DNA of 64,000 bases from Limnothrix sp. CACIAM 69d (GTDB taxonomy: Bacteria; Cyanobacteriota; Cyanobacteriia; CACIAM-69d): contig MKGP02000088.1 of assembly GCA_001913845.2 (NCBI GenBank), forward strand, positions 62,001-126,000, written 5' to 3'. Below, piece after piece: positions 5,588 to 13,288 of the stretch (the stretch's first letter is position 1; each line of letters starts with the position of its first letter). The notes beneath the pieces are model-generated. The model saw nothing but the letters and a program-made list of their open reading frames with translations, had not been told where the DNA came from and made no database searches. The position numbers were made by a program, and so were the translations under genes.

Positions 5588-6050
5588 CCTATCTGGAATG
5601 AGTGATGTAATTAGGAGTGATTTTAACTCTACTTCACCTTGCTGATTTCTTTCATCCTTAGAAATAGCTTCCTTTTAAGCCCATGAATTTGTTGCGGTAA
5701 ACTGTTAGATTCGGTTCCACTTCTCGTCAATTAAAATTGGCATAGAAAATTGGCATAGACAGTTACAGACTGGCACAGAATTGATGGAGTTCAATTGAGA
5801 ACCCCCATAGGATTGAGGCGATCGCGCGAATGCACTTGAAATAACCTGAGAGGATGTCTGAAAAGCCGCAATGGCTACCTTGCTTGTGGGTCTCATCCAC
5901 CGACAAAGCCAAGATGCTCAAGCCTCTTGATCCCAAGACCGTTAGTGCTTGACCAGTGCCCCAAGTCGCTTCAGCCATCCTCTGAGGTTTGTTAATTCCA
6001 GTTAATTCCAACCGATCGAGACAGCAAGCTGCGTCTTTTGTCCTCAACCA
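5588..6050. other. intergenic region containing a MITE
   Basis: 463 bp between polA and the glycosyltransferase. Apart from the inverted-repeat element at 5850-5982 I see no gene, RNA or terminator. Minus-strand open frames here run antisense into the next gene and show no family pattern. Confidence 0.5.
5850..5982 (-). repeat. 133-bp MITE, copy 1 (TGA target duplication)
   Basis: The left end GAGGATGTCTGAAAAG (5850-5865) and right end CGCTTCAGCCATCCTC (5967-5982) are imperfect inverted repeats. The trinucleotide TGA is duplicated outside both ends (5847-5849 and 5983-5985). The reverse complement aligns along its length with the element at 47349-47479 (shared core GCTTGAGCATCTTG, then CTTYGTCGRT and GATGAG). 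It is non-coding. The three-base TNA-type duplication is typical of some IS5-family transposases, so mobilisation in trans by such an element is inferred. Confidence 0.75.
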
Positions 6051-7205
6051 TTGCTGCGATCGCTTGTGTTGAATTTTGCGAGCTATTTTTTTGCCCCCGG
6101 TGGCTGGGGAACCCATGCCCGATCGCTCGCGGGAGCACTGCACCCGATCGAACCGATCGCCCTTTGTGATTGGCAACCTCCCCAACCCTTAGCCGATTGG
6201 GAACGGGGCGTGCCGGAACTGTTGACAGCCGGGCTGCAACCGGCGGCCAATGCACCCACCCTGGTCATTGTGTCCGGGTTGCCGATGCCGCCCTTTCCCG
6301 GTTGCTGCCAAATTGGGCTGTTTGTGTGGGAAACCACCCACATTCATCAAAAATTTCAGCAATTGCTCGATCGGTTCGATTACCTTTGGGTGCCGTCCCT
6401 TTGGCAACGACAGGTAGCGATCGAGTCCGGGCTTGCCCCCCAGCGCCTGGCCGTTGTGCCGGAAGGGGTTGACCCCCAAGTCTTTCAGCCCCATCCCCAC
6501 CGCCCCTCAGCTTTGAATCGCGACTTGCGGCAGCGGCGCTTCCGGTTCCTTTGTGTGGGCAAATGGGAACGACGCAAGGGCATCGATCTGCTGATCCAAG
6601 CCTTTGCCAAGGCCTTTGAACCCCAAGATCCCGTGGAACTGGTGTTGCACGCCCACAACGGCTACATTCCCCACTTTGACCTCAAGGCATCGATCAACCA
6701 TGCTGCAAAGCTATTGGGGGCCGAGGCCCATCGCATTTTACCCAGCTATCCGGCCGGGCGATCGGGCCTCGTGCAAGTCCTGCAAAAGGCCGATGCCTTT
6801 GTGTTGCCTACCCGGGGCGAGGCTTGGGGATTGCCCATTTTGGAAGCCATGGCCTGTGGGCTGCCCTGCATTGTCACGGACTGGAGCGGCCTGCGGGCCT
6901 ATGCTCACCCGGGCAATGCTTATCTGATTCCGGTCAAAAACTTGATTCCCGTCAATGATCCGCAGTTTTTTGACCCCAACTTGGACTGGGGCCACTGGGC
7001 CGAGCCGGACTTGGATGCTCTGGTGGCCCTGATGCGGCAGGTTTATCACGATCGGGAAGCAGCCCAACAACGCGGGGCGATCGCCCGGGCCGAAGCCGCC
7101 AGCCTCTGGACTTGGGAACGAGCCGCCCACACGGCCCAACAGCAATTGGCCGCCCTGGGATTCCGCCCCGATCGCTGGCCCCCTTCGGTATCCGCCGCCG
7201 CTTAG
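6051..7205 (+). CDS. GT4-family glycosyltransferase
   Basis: About 384 residues of a GT-B fold, GT4-type glycosyltransferase. Early N-terminal residues ASYFFAPGGWGTHARSLAGAL form the glycine-rich acceptor loop. The C-terminal nucleotide-sugar half has VPEGVDPQVF, then GKWERRKGIDLLIQAF, and the conserved acidic pair in GEAWGLPILEAMACGLPCI (E-x7-E). Donor and acceptor cannot be read from sequence; cell-surface polysaccharide or glycolipid synthesis is an inference. The frame is open back to 6006 but has no ATG, so a TTG (6051) or GTG (6066) start must be used. It stands alone between a repeat-bearing gap and a long empty stretch. Confidence 0.85.
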   Translation: MLRSLVLNFASYFFAPGGWGTHARSLAGALHPIEPIALCDWQPPQPLADWERGVPELLTAGLQPAANAPTLVIVSGLPMPPFPGCCQIGLFVWETTHIHQKFQQLLDRFDYLWVPSLWQRQVAIESGLAPQRLAVVPEGVDPQVFQPHPHRPSALNRDLRQRRFRFLCVGKWERRKGIDLLIQAFAKAFEPQDPVELVLHAHNGYIPHFDLKASINHAAKLLGAEAHRILPSYPAGRSGLVQVLQKADAFVLPTRGEAWGLPILEAMACGLPCIVTDWSGLRAYAHPGNAYLIPVKNLIPVNDPQFFDPNLDWGHWAEPDLDALVALMRQVYHDREAAQQRGAIARAEAASLWTWERAAHTAQQQLAALGFRPDRWPPSVSAAA

Positions 7206-9525: not shown

Positions 9526-9623
9526 CCCCGAGCGTCAGTCAGGATGGCCAGGGCAGGAGGCAGAAGTTAGGGTTACAATAGGAACCTCACCCAAGATCGA
9601 CGCGCTCTCCAGCCCATTGCGCC

Positions 9624-9770
9624 ATGCCTGAGCCTGCTTCTTCAGCCATTCATTCCTTCATTTAGCGGTGGCAAGCGTCAAGCGGCAATGAGCGGGGAAA
9701 TTATCAGCTTTTTTTGAGTGAATGGTGTGACTTGTTGGGGGTGGCGCGGCCCGATCCGAAAGGGGCGATC
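9624..9770 (+). pseudogene. N-terminal remnant of an MmeI-like DNA methyltransferase/endonuclease
   Basis: Translation from the ATG at 9624 gives MPEPASSAIHSFI, an in-frame TAG (9663-9665), then RWQ...[24 protein letters not shown]. The pattern 'FIxRW...ERxNYxLFLxELCDxLGVPRPDP' is the start of the large class I SAM-dependent DNA methyltransferases of the MmeI type. Homology stops at about 9770, well before the family's VFE...LYKRGxFVLEAKQ nuclease core. It is therefore broken by a nonsense codon and a 3' truncation. A C-terminal fragment of probably the same gene lies on the same strand at 12915-13235, beyond the cassette-like insert. Confidence 0.7.
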
Positions 9771-9918
9771 GCACGTCCAAGTCTTGCGGACTCACCCAAC
9801 TGTTGCTCAGCGATTCTACTGGCTCTCGTCATGAGGATGATCACAGGACTGAGTGCATTGTCTGCCTGATCTCTGTCGGTTACCGATGGCTATCACTGCA
9901 AGGGTCTCGCAGCGCAGC

Positions 9919-10005
9919 GGCATAACGGTGAAGTTGTGCGGCGGCAGATAACCTCGAACTCTCATCGATAACCTTTGTTCCGTCCGCACCAACGCAGTGT
10001 TAGCC
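9919..10005 (-). repeat. attC-like recombination site
   Basis: On the minus strand the outer boxes are GGCTAAC (10005-9999) and GTTATGCC (9926-9919). The inner arms are GTTGgTGCGGaCGG (9993-9980) and CCGCCGCACAAC (9944-9933), pairing with two unpaired bases on one arm only. That asymmetric bulge pattern is the hallmark of integron attC sites. The loop between the arms is about 35 nt. The outer boxes deviate by one base each from consensus RYYYAAC/GTTRRRY. It lies just 3' of the type IIG gene. Confidence 0.5.
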
Positions 10006-10040
10006 CTCTTCCGATTATGTAGCGTAAGTCTTAAAAAGTC

Positions 10041-12638
10041 TTAGACAAGTACGATATGGCTAGGTCGCTTATCCAAATCCAAGCCAGAAAGATATCCTTT
10101 GCTAATTAGTTTGGCAACTGCATTCCGAATCGTAGTTCTTCCTTGTTTTAAGTCAGTAACATATTCCGATAGTTGATCCCTAACTTCTTGATTTGCAATG
10201 ATAGGAATAATCACTTGCTTTGCATCATCGACTGTGATTTCTGCTAAACCATCTGAACCTCTAGCGTATGAACGCATCTGAACCGCCCATGCTTCACTCA
10301 CTAGGAAGGCAACAATATCTATAAGTTTTTCTTCATGTCCCTGTTTAATACGACAACGATGACAGCCATTTGTAACAACTATATCCTTACTATCATCTCC
10401 AACGAAACACCACTTGGAAACACTACCCCAAATTGAACCGAAATATAAGTCTCCAGGTTCAGCAAAATGTTTTGCTCGATCAGGTAGCTGCCAACCTCTA
10501 TACTCAGCAAATGAATACTCGCCACAACCCATATCGTCTAGCTGAACATACCGATATATCAACTCCTGCCTCTTCTTTTGTTTCAATCCTTTTGAATTAA
10601 TCTTCTCAGGAATAAAGTCAACAACATCTCCAAGTAAAAAATGATCTGCCTCTTTAATCCGATCACGAAGCATTAATACCTTCTTACAATAGCGTTTTGG
10701 ATCTAATGTTAAGTCTGGGTCTTCATAAACTACATTAACTGGAACCGACCAAGATTCCAAAGCTGCTTCTTGAGAAATTTCTTGCCCATCTCTAAGCCAC
10801 TCAAAGTAGTTACTTGCTTCACTGTTTCTAATTCTCTCAAGCGAAACAGGAAAATCAGAATCAACTATCAAATCTCCATTTTCATTAATGATGAAGCTGC
10901 CATCTTTTTGATTCCTCCGATAAATAGGCTCTGCCCTTTTATTTCCTGCTTCCCACCCTAGATTTTCAATCATCTCGACGGCAAAATAAAACTCTTCCTC
11001 TTGTATTTCTTCGAGTGGTTTATGCCTCTTTTCTGCAAATAAGACACTTGCACTTACATCTGCACCACTAGACTTAAAGGTAAAGCGAGGAAACGAAACA
11101 ATAGCAGCGATTTTAACATTACGAAGTAACCATTCTCGAAAAACTCTATACGTGGAAGATCTATTGCCTAGATACCCATTTGGTAGAATGATTCCAATTC
11201 TCCCTCCTGGCTTGCACTCTTTTACACATACTTCAGCAAAAAGAATACCTGTTTGTGCTGATGAAAGCACTTTACTGGTAATTTTGTATTTACCATCCTC
11301 TACCTTCCACTCTCTAGCAAGTTCGTATGTTTTTAGAACATTTGAACGAGTCTCAATAATTCTGGTTCCAAAGGGAGGATTGCAAAGAAGTATGTCATAT
11401 TTACTGCTTCTTGTATTTGCCGTTGCCAGAGAATCAGCTTTAGAAATATTTGTTTTTCCATCGCCATTTAATAACATGTTAAGGACAGCAACTTGAACAG
11501 CGTTAGATGAGTTATCAACACCCCAAACATTATCTGCATAGCCGTGATTAAATTCACGTCCTATACGAAATGCAGCTACCAAAAAATCTGCACTGCCGCA
11601 GGCTGGATCAGCAACATGTTCCCCAAATTGAGGATTAGCCACTTGTACGATGAAGTCAGTTGCCGATGTAGGTGTAAAGTATTGAGCTAAATCCCAACGA
11701 TAAAGATCTTTTGCAAATTTCATGTAGAAGGATTGAATTACACTTCTACGAGAATGAATAATGCGAACAGGTGCGAGAATTTTAAGAATATCTAATAATG
11801 TATCTCCTGAAATAGGGATTTCTTTGGAAATTGGATTAGGTAGGTGTTTTTCATAAAACGAAACAGCCTTATCGAGAACTTTATTGAATTTCTGAAGGGC
11901 AATATCAGAGCTTGTTCCTAAACTTGAAAAATCTTGAATTGCAAGTGGTTTTTGGGGACGACCCTCAAAAGCGTGCTCATCAAAGATTTTGGCTAGAAGT
12001 AGTTGCAAAATAATCGGATATCGTTGCTCTGCATCAAAGGAAGATTGATGCAGTATGTCTTCAATTCTGCTGAATATATTTGTTAACGATTCAGTTGTTT
12101 TTGTATCGTCAAATGTAATTTCTTTAGTTGTAACCTTCGCGCCAAATGAGGGTAGAAATGAAAGCGGACCTTCTCGTGTTTCGCGAACACCATTTGAACG
12201 CTCTTCCCAAAAAACACGTTGCTCAACGTCATCCCAGTACAAAGCAATACAATTATCTTTTTTGGCAAAATCTAGTAAAGGTTCCACCTGAGTTTTTTTA
12301 ACGTAATCGCTATCTTTGTTTTGCCGTTTTACCTCACAAAGTACAAGCGCATGTGAAAGTACATCATCTATACTCCCCGTATCAACAGACTGAATTGGGA
12401 CATCAAGAACGGCAAAGTCACCTCGGAAGCTATTACGACCAGAGTTGCCGAACCTTTTAATTACAGGCTCAATAAGAAAGTTCTCTGGTGGATACCCTTT
12501 TCGTATCAAATGCCGAATTGCCTGCACCCTTTGAAACTCTTCGCTTGGTGTAAGCCCATCCTTGCTTTTGCCTGTAGCTTTAAGTTGTCCACGAACAGGG
12601 CATGTAAGCGTAAGTCTTGTTAGAGCAGTCATTGGCAA
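10041..12638 (-). CDS. single-chain restriction-modification enzyme (type IIG-like, R-M-S fusion)
   Basis: 865 residues combining three activities. The N-terminus is an HsdR_N-like PD-(D/E)XK nuclease with D74 (RGDFAVLDV), E102-V-K104 (LCEVKRQ) and Gln117. The middle is an N6-adenine methyltransferase of HsdM type: QYFTP (319-323), DPACGSADF (344-352) and the catalytic NPPFG (420-424). The last 220 residues or so resemble an HsdS target-recognition domain, with a final helical repeat. The order nuclease-methylase-recognition in one chain is type IIG organisation, so self-contained cutting and protection are inferred. Codon use is AT-rich, unlike its neighbours, indicating acquisition. An attC-like site follows its stop. 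There are no partner genes. Confidence 0.85.
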   Translation of the reverse strand: MPMTALTRLTLTCPVRGQLKATGKSKDGLTPSEEFQRVQAIRHLIRKGYPPENFLIEPVIKRFGNSGRNSFRGDFAVLDVPIQSVDTGSIDDVLSHALVLCEVKRQNKDSDYVKKTQVEPLLDFAKKDNCIALYWDDVEQRVFWEERSNGVRETREGPLSFLPSFGAKVTTKEITFDDTKTTESLTNIFSRIEDILHQSSFDAEQRYPIILQLLLAKIFDEHAFEGRPQKPLAIQDFSSLGTSSDIALQKFNKVLDKAVSFYEKHLPNPISKEIPISGDTLLDILKILAPVRIIHSRRSVIQSFYMKFAKDLYRWDLAQYFTPTSATDFIVQVANPQFGEHVADPACGSADFLVAAFRIGREFNHGYADNVWGVDNSSNAVQVAVLNMLLNGDGKTNISKADSLATANTRSSKYDILLCNPPFGTRIIETRSNVLKTYELAREWKVEDGKYKITSKVLSSAQTGILFAEVCVKECKPGGRIGIILPNGYLGNRSSTYRVFREWLLRNVKIAAIVSFPRFTFKSSGADVSASVLFAEKRHKPLEEIQEEEFYFAVEMIENLGWEAGNKRAEPIYRRNQKDGSFIINENGDLIVDSDFPVSLERIRNSEASNYFEWLRDGQEISQEAALESWSVPVNVVYEDPDLTLDPKRYCKKVLMLRDRIKEADHFLLGDVVDFIPEKINSKGLKQKKRQELIYRYVQLDDMGCGEYSFAEYRGWQLPDRAKHFAEPGDLYFGSIWGSVSKWCFVGDDSKDIVVTNGCHRCRIKQGHEEKLIDIVAFLVSEAWAVQMRSYARGSDGLAEITVDDAKQVIIPIIANQEVRDQLSEYVTDLKQGRTTIRNAVAKLISKGYLSGLDLDKRPSHIVLV

Positions 12639-12695
12639 AAAAATACGATGAGTGGTTAAGGCATTAGGTATATCTTAGTAGGGCTAACTATTTAT

Positions 12696-12754
12696 TAGAC
12701 CGCAGGTACAGGATAACTCCCCTCAGCAGAGTGTTGTCAAGCAGTTGCGGTCTA
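12696..12754. repeat. inverted repeat TAGACCGCA / TGCGGTCTA
   Basis: Perfect 9-bp arms at 12696-12704 and 12746-12754 enclose a 41-nt loop. Together with GGGCTAAC at 12681-12688 it could be half of a second, degenerate attC-like site in plus orientation, but no matching 3' core box follows it. Confidence 0.4.
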
Positions 12755-12767
12755 GCTCCGGTACTAA

Positions 12768-12799
12768 GGGTATTATCCCGCAGTTGCAAGATAATACCC
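12768..12799. repeat. hairpin GGGTATTATC / GATAATACCC
   Basis: Perfect 10-bp arms with a 12-nt loop (12768-12777, 12790-12799). No T-run follows on the plus strand, so it is not a typical intrinsic terminator. It may be an operator or element end; role unknown. Confidence 0.4.
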
Positions 12800-12914
12800 C
12801 CCCTTATAGGACTTTTACCGCAACGATCGCCCCAGAAACACCACAGCCCTAATCCAACGGCGCGATCGCCCGTTTCACCAGGTTCTCAGCCGTCAGACCA
12901 TTCAGACCCATCAG

Positions 12915-13235
12915 TTGGCCAGCGGTAGCCGTCGTTTCGCCGCGCTTCCAGGCAAACACATCGCGCGGAGCCGCGCTGCGCAGGACAATCGCCCCTTGCC
13001 CCTGCCCAAGGAATTCAAAGAGCGCGTCGCCGCCGTCCGCGATCTGTTCCGCACCGAAGGGGGCGAATGGACAATCGATCGCGCCACCAGCCGATTCAGC
13101 GGCAAAAACACCAAAGCCAAAGCCAAAAACATCAGACAGGCGATCGAAGCCCTCGAAGGCGCGGGGCTGCTGCTGTCCTACGAAGATAACGGCGAACAAC
13201 GCTGGTATGATGCCAGCCTCCAGGCGATCGCCTAG
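12915..13235 (+). pseudogene. C-terminal remnant of an MmeI-like methyltransferase
   Basis: The plus frame ends in a helical domain: LPLPKEFKERVAAVRDLFR, then FSGKNTKAKAKNIRQAIEALE, then YEDNGEQRWYDA and a TAG. Large DNA methyltransferases of the MmeI/class I group end with a similar 'LPxxxxERVxAVRxxL...ETLxxLGxA...RYxA' winged-helix-like tail. The only start codon available (TTG at 12915) has no ribosome-binding site. The same-strand N-terminal remnant lies at 9624-9770, so I read the two as ends of one gene whose middle was lost or replaced. The family match is from memory of the pattern and is moderate. The first 30 codons look non-homologous. Confidence 0.5.
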
Positions 13236-13288
13236 CAATTAGCGATCATCTTCAGCTCAAGATTCTTCGCGCTGCTCGATCGACCGTG

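Follow-up and report, generated by a model that had tools for sequence, protein, structure and literature searches.

What raises a question at this locus is a gene bounded by integron-like core sites in cyanobacterial DNA with no integrase in view. It may be asked whether the gene is a true integron cassette and, if so, how it came to be held there. An earlier note, made from the letters of the window (the whole 64-kb stretch of DNA analysed), described an integron-cassette-like unit at 9919–12688, and its coordinates proved exact to the base when the sequence was re-read. The reading reached here, at a probability of about 0.92, is that the unit is an intI-less relic of an integron, consisting of an attI docking site and one cassette. 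The earlier note recognised the cassette correctly and overlooked the docking site beside it. The features are as follows, the slash in core sites standing between G and TT.

9527–13254, no strand: block present in the window and absent in the sister genome G002 (collinear flanks 93–95% identical)
9919–10005, minus strand: attC, with R'' at 9999–10005 and R' at 9919–9926 (GTTATGCC, of which TTATGCC is the target's), from a covariance model
9926–12687, minus strand: gene cassette in its predicted excised form, 2762 bp, with core sites at both ends
10041–12632, minus strand: 863-aa fused PD-(D/E)xK-type nuclease, N6-adenine methyltransferase and HsdS-like target recognition domain, predicted from Pfam, a conserved motif and fold matches
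12682–12688, minus strand: upstream core G/TTAGCC, the attI/cassette junction, read from sequence
12686–12847, minus strand: solo attI, a dispersed element of about 160 bp ending in TCTAATAAATAG followed by TT, assigned from a profile of intI-adjacent attIs, copies in relatives and intI stubs by other copies
12849–12991, minus strand: 143-bp 3'-end fragment of a transketolase-like gene, abutting attI

The cassette and its attC site

Along the minus strand, the core GTTAGCC (12688–12682) is followed by the ORF, R'' (GGCTAAC, 10005–9999), a hairpin and GTTATGCC (9926–9919). Both cores, GTTAGCC and GTTATGCC, contain G/TT and are each one base off GTTRRRY; the same two variants are also present in true cyanobacterial integrons. 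Since the target contributes TTATGCC and the cassette TTAGCC, R' of the circular cassette is G/TTAGCC, the exact complement of R''. As in integron cassettes, the gene content is a single ORF of 863 aa with a short leader, reading towards attC. The AT-rich gene reported to follow a GTTAGCC core is borne out by a GC content of 39.3% in the cassette versus 54.7% in the window. The 43-bp leader given in the earlier note holds for a TTG start at 12638, whereas homologues favour the ATG at 12632, which leaves about 49 bp.

The attC site was assessed with a covariance model (R1) of 14 aligned attCs, the window site left out, with 19 pairs of which 10 show compensatory changes. The training sites came from a home-made scan of the surroundings of integron integrases in other Cyanobacteriia, 20 stretches in all. 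On this model the window attC scored 77.7 bits (E 1.4e-16) and was the sole match in the 64 kb; integrase-linked attCs score up to 86 bits. The hairpin of 87 nt has paired R''/R' and L''/L' arms, unpaired spacers and extrahelical bases, and the two unpaired bases already noticed on one arm are a G and an A of the 5' arm (columns 17 and 25 of the model). The home-made scan of both strands of the window returned this site alone, and 20 shuffled windows gave zero matches. A covariance model had been proposed as the check on the cassette-like unit, and it places the score far above background.

Cyanobacterial genomes contain many palindromic repeats, and the hairpin might in principle be one of these, unrelated to integrons, with the gene merely alongside. 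The single match in the window at the above E-value, the agreement of both cassette ends, and 89–92% identity to attCs in the integrase-adjacent arrays of complete integrons leave this explanation a negligible chance, and the covariance model refutes it. The earlier note had named a hairpin widespread without cassettes or integrases as the outcome that would speak against a cassette; the attC family was found instead in integrase-bearing arrays of other cyanobacteria. An attC of the integrase-bearing genome G134 is identical to that of the window at 77/87 positions, and relatives of the site occur on named plasmids of Kovacikia minuta and Synechocystis. On Kovacikia minuta plasmid pB (NZ_CP083584.1), an attC that is 91.5% identical (76.1 bits) ends the first cassette and adjoins an annotated integron integrase.

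The predicted restriction-modification cargo

The 863-aa protein is likely a single-chain (type IIG/IIB-like) restriction-modification enzyme, as first proposed, with an activity that we infer. Its methyltransferase core matches Pfam N6_Mtase (E 2e-28), the D...ExK nuclease motif of the N-terminal domain is kept in 11 homologues aligned over the whole domain, and the C-terminal domain has fold matches to HsdS and BsaXI specificity subunits, so that nuclease, N6-methyltransferase and target recognition domain (TRD) appear to lie in one chain. The N-terminal domain also matched the BsaXI fold with E 5e-5 and a low TM-score. The protein thus resembles the type IIB enzyme BsaXI in the fold of both its N-terminal nuclease region and its C-terminal specificity domain; BsaXI, however, carries specificity on a separate chain, whereas the window enzyme has all parts in one chain and one TRD-like region. 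Homologues with 47–62% identity occur in Bacteroidota, Bacillota and Pseudomonadota. No attC was found near the homologues in other phyla, and no homologue was found in 380 cyanobacterial genomes.

The attI flank, its copies and the missing integrase

The DNA to the right of the junction recurs in relatives in differing contexts, and the repeat stops exactly at the junction. When profiled, the repeat matches DNA directly upstream of intI in true integrons, where the core is AATAYATAG/TT. A second, independent profile drew on 12 intI-adjacent attIs, all from families other than the window's; it matched 12746–12686 (E 1.4e-6) and stopped on the GTT of the junction; the next unrelated match had E 2. 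Judged by these profiles, the flank at 12686–12847 is an attI, not random DNA, and it stands at the head of the cassette as in a complete integron. The readings of the repeat as a second attC type or a dispersed repeat of unknown kind were ruled out by the match to intI-adjacent attIs. Expression of the cassette would presumably start at a promoter close to attI; scanning attI for sigma-70 promoters gave nothing above chance and no cassette promoter.

The first working idea was an off-target insertion at a chance site (attG), with an incidental attI-like flank, and it was dropped once intI-adjacent attIs were seen to match the flank. Such off-target events are documented for cassettes and discussed (PMC12901181, PMC12444791), and no intI stub lies beside the window attI, where the transketolase 3' fragment stands instead. 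However, a chance site would have to account for a flank of about 160 bp matched by an independent attI profile whose end falls on the junction, for the recurrence of the element in relatives, where cassettes occupy the equivalent position, and for the intI stubs that adjoin other copies. Insertion at an attG is accordingly held to be very improbable.

The fragment abutting attI is homologous to the 3' end of an intact 737-aa transketolase-like gene in G001 (L021 4711–6924), which lies immediately upstream of an attI copy. Transketolase-like 3' ends are also repeated nearby, three in G002 (L122, G002:C12) and two in G001 (L021, G001:C56), and some of them come with incomplete attI copies, as though integration or duplication had recurred at this gene end. 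Next to the window fragment, 12992–13254 is a 3' fragment of another gene (ORF end 13235), with homologous stretches elsewhere in G001 and G004. A comparison with sister strains, suggested in the earlier note, showed the unit to be absent from G002, which has about 60 bp in place of 9527–13254 between the conserved flanks. The absent block takes in the transketolase-like fragment, and the piece gained or lost was therefore larger than the cassette. No empty attI was found at the window locus because the sister genome lacks the entire block.

Similar units are dispersed in relatives. Genome G004 holds six attI copies, one truncated. Five copies are each followed on the same strand by one attC 0.8–4.2 kb downstream, and these five make up every strong attC in that genome. 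The genomes are drafts, and the numbers of attI and attC sites are to be read as minima. As at the window locus, the core by attI complements R'' of the far attC in L115, L116 and L117 (in L117 with one G-T pair). The DNA between the two sites in the G004 units is AT-rich (GC 0.39–0.44 versus 0.54–0.64 in the flanks), and the cargo predicted from translations includes a GIY-YIG-like protein (L117), a lipase-like protein (L119) and a toxin-antitoxin-like pair (L115). L116 4219–6884 (G004:C11) encodes, on opposite strands, a methyltransferase, a putative endonuclease and a helix-turn-helix regulator, seemingly a whole restriction-modification system by its translations. Within the window's own genome, more attI sequences, whole or in part, lie on contigs C23, C91 and C31. 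On G000:C31, a partial attI (L177 5029–5106) is followed in the same orientation by two weaker attCs (5810–5914 and 6948–7044); the prefilter overlooked these two contig C31 sites, seen by direct search, and genome-wide attC counts are lower bounds for this reason. Truncated attI copies occur in L120, L122 and L177. Outside the family, G183, G026, G070 and G032 hold attCs, attI-like copies and N-terminal intI stubs.

The earlier note had seen no integrase, and none was found in the window; the genome search that it proposed likewise returned no full-length IntI. The best TIGR02249 match in the genome, a XerC-like protein of 307 aa, scored 57 bits against a cut-off of 265, and a direct search with cyanobacterial IntI gave no full-length intI. 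The intI that stands beside attI in a complete integron is therefore present in neither window nor genome. TIGR02249 exceeded its cut-off in 0/6 genomes of the window's family and in 123/390 Cyanobacteriia genomes, some with premature stop codons. Remnants of intI were found elsewhere. Two attI copies in G004 have an intI 5' end directly adjoining in divergent orientation (E 2e-18 and 1.6e-10), and copies of the same attI abut intI stubs in G026 and G032, which belong to two other families. A tblastn match beside the repeat in L117 (E 0.007) was rejected as a stub, being merely attI sequence upstream of the intI start. In G004, G026, G032, G070 and G183, which have no strong full-length IntI match, the stubs are N-terminal almost without exception. 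In G070, with 37 attC matches and no full-length intI, an open frame at G070:C2:1916302–1916556 fuses IntI residues 6–71 and 284–300, an internal deletion. L180 (G183) has apparent tandem units of an N-terminal intI stub, attI and a cassette with attC, also with no full-length intI.

According to the proposed mechanism, an IntI, past or acting in trans, would have inserted the AT-rich, promoterless cassette between G and TT of attI (...TCTAATAAATAG/TT). The folded bottom strand of attC would have recombined with double-stranded attI to give attI-G/TTAGCC-gene-attC-G/TTATGCC. At the window locus, we infer that insertion by IntI was followed by loss of the integrase. Since no integrase is left in the genome, the cassette would now be immobile unless mobilised by an incoming IntI, such as one carried by a plasmid.

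The same anatomy would also be expected of a working dispersed system, in which solo attIs are scattered landing pads still used by IntI supplied in trans from plasmids. The attC structure and the attI core are intact, as are both cassette junctions, most of the several attI copies per genome hold one cassette, and complete integrons with the closely similar attC noted above occur on a plasmid of another cyanobacterium. This explanation is considered rather unlikely, given that no full-length IntI was found in any of the six family genomes, that some attI copies are truncated (L120, L122, L177) and that the intI stubs are decaying, which is relic-like. A broader suggestion concerns a recurrent non-autonomous form of cyanobacterial integron with several scattered solo attIs per genome, one or a few cassettes at each and often only the first 25–80 codons of intI, filled or emptied in trans. 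The N-terminal bias of the stubs is not what plain decay would predict; the suggestion is tentative and perhaps doubtful.

Comparison with known integrons

With the cyanobacterial attI profile, what looked like a stray cassette is seen to be docked, and genomes of the family would hold several loaded docking sites each, left by presumed integrase loss. Several of the lone cassettes hold predicted defence genes, namely restriction-modification systems and the toxin-antitoxin-like pair, and cassette capture in trans becomes directly testable. Outside class 1 integrons attIs have been little characterised (PMC9024848), so that integrase-less platforms go unseen. Scattered solo attIs seem to be a variant of the integron not described before; no description of several solo attIs per genome, mostly with one cassette, was found in the open-licence literature.

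Integrons in Cyanobacteria are already known (PMC8352920, PMC8618304, PMC2426708). Lone attCs without an integrase are termed SALIN (PMC12690207), and the window, with one attC in 64 kb and no intI, falls in this class. The SALIN and CALIN classes of IntegronFinder, for single or clustered attCs, share with it an attC cassette with no integrase nearby (PMC12690207), but tools look for attI only in class 1 integrons (PMC9024848), whereas the window cassette sits in a recognisable attI. Loss of the integrase with retention of cassettes is known, for example, in Xanthomonas (PMC12444791), and intI pseudogenes have been reported (PMC2426708). Such integrons with inactivated or deleted intI resemble the present units in their persisting cassettes and truncated intI remnants. 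The Xanthomonas platform, however, occupies a conserved chromosomal place by ilvD, in contrast to the scattered attI copies with mostly one cassette each described here. The integron of Kovacikia minuta plasmid pB comes close in its attC and in a first cassette with a DNA methyltransferase gene; unlike the window unit, it carries several cassettes as well as an annotated integron integrase.
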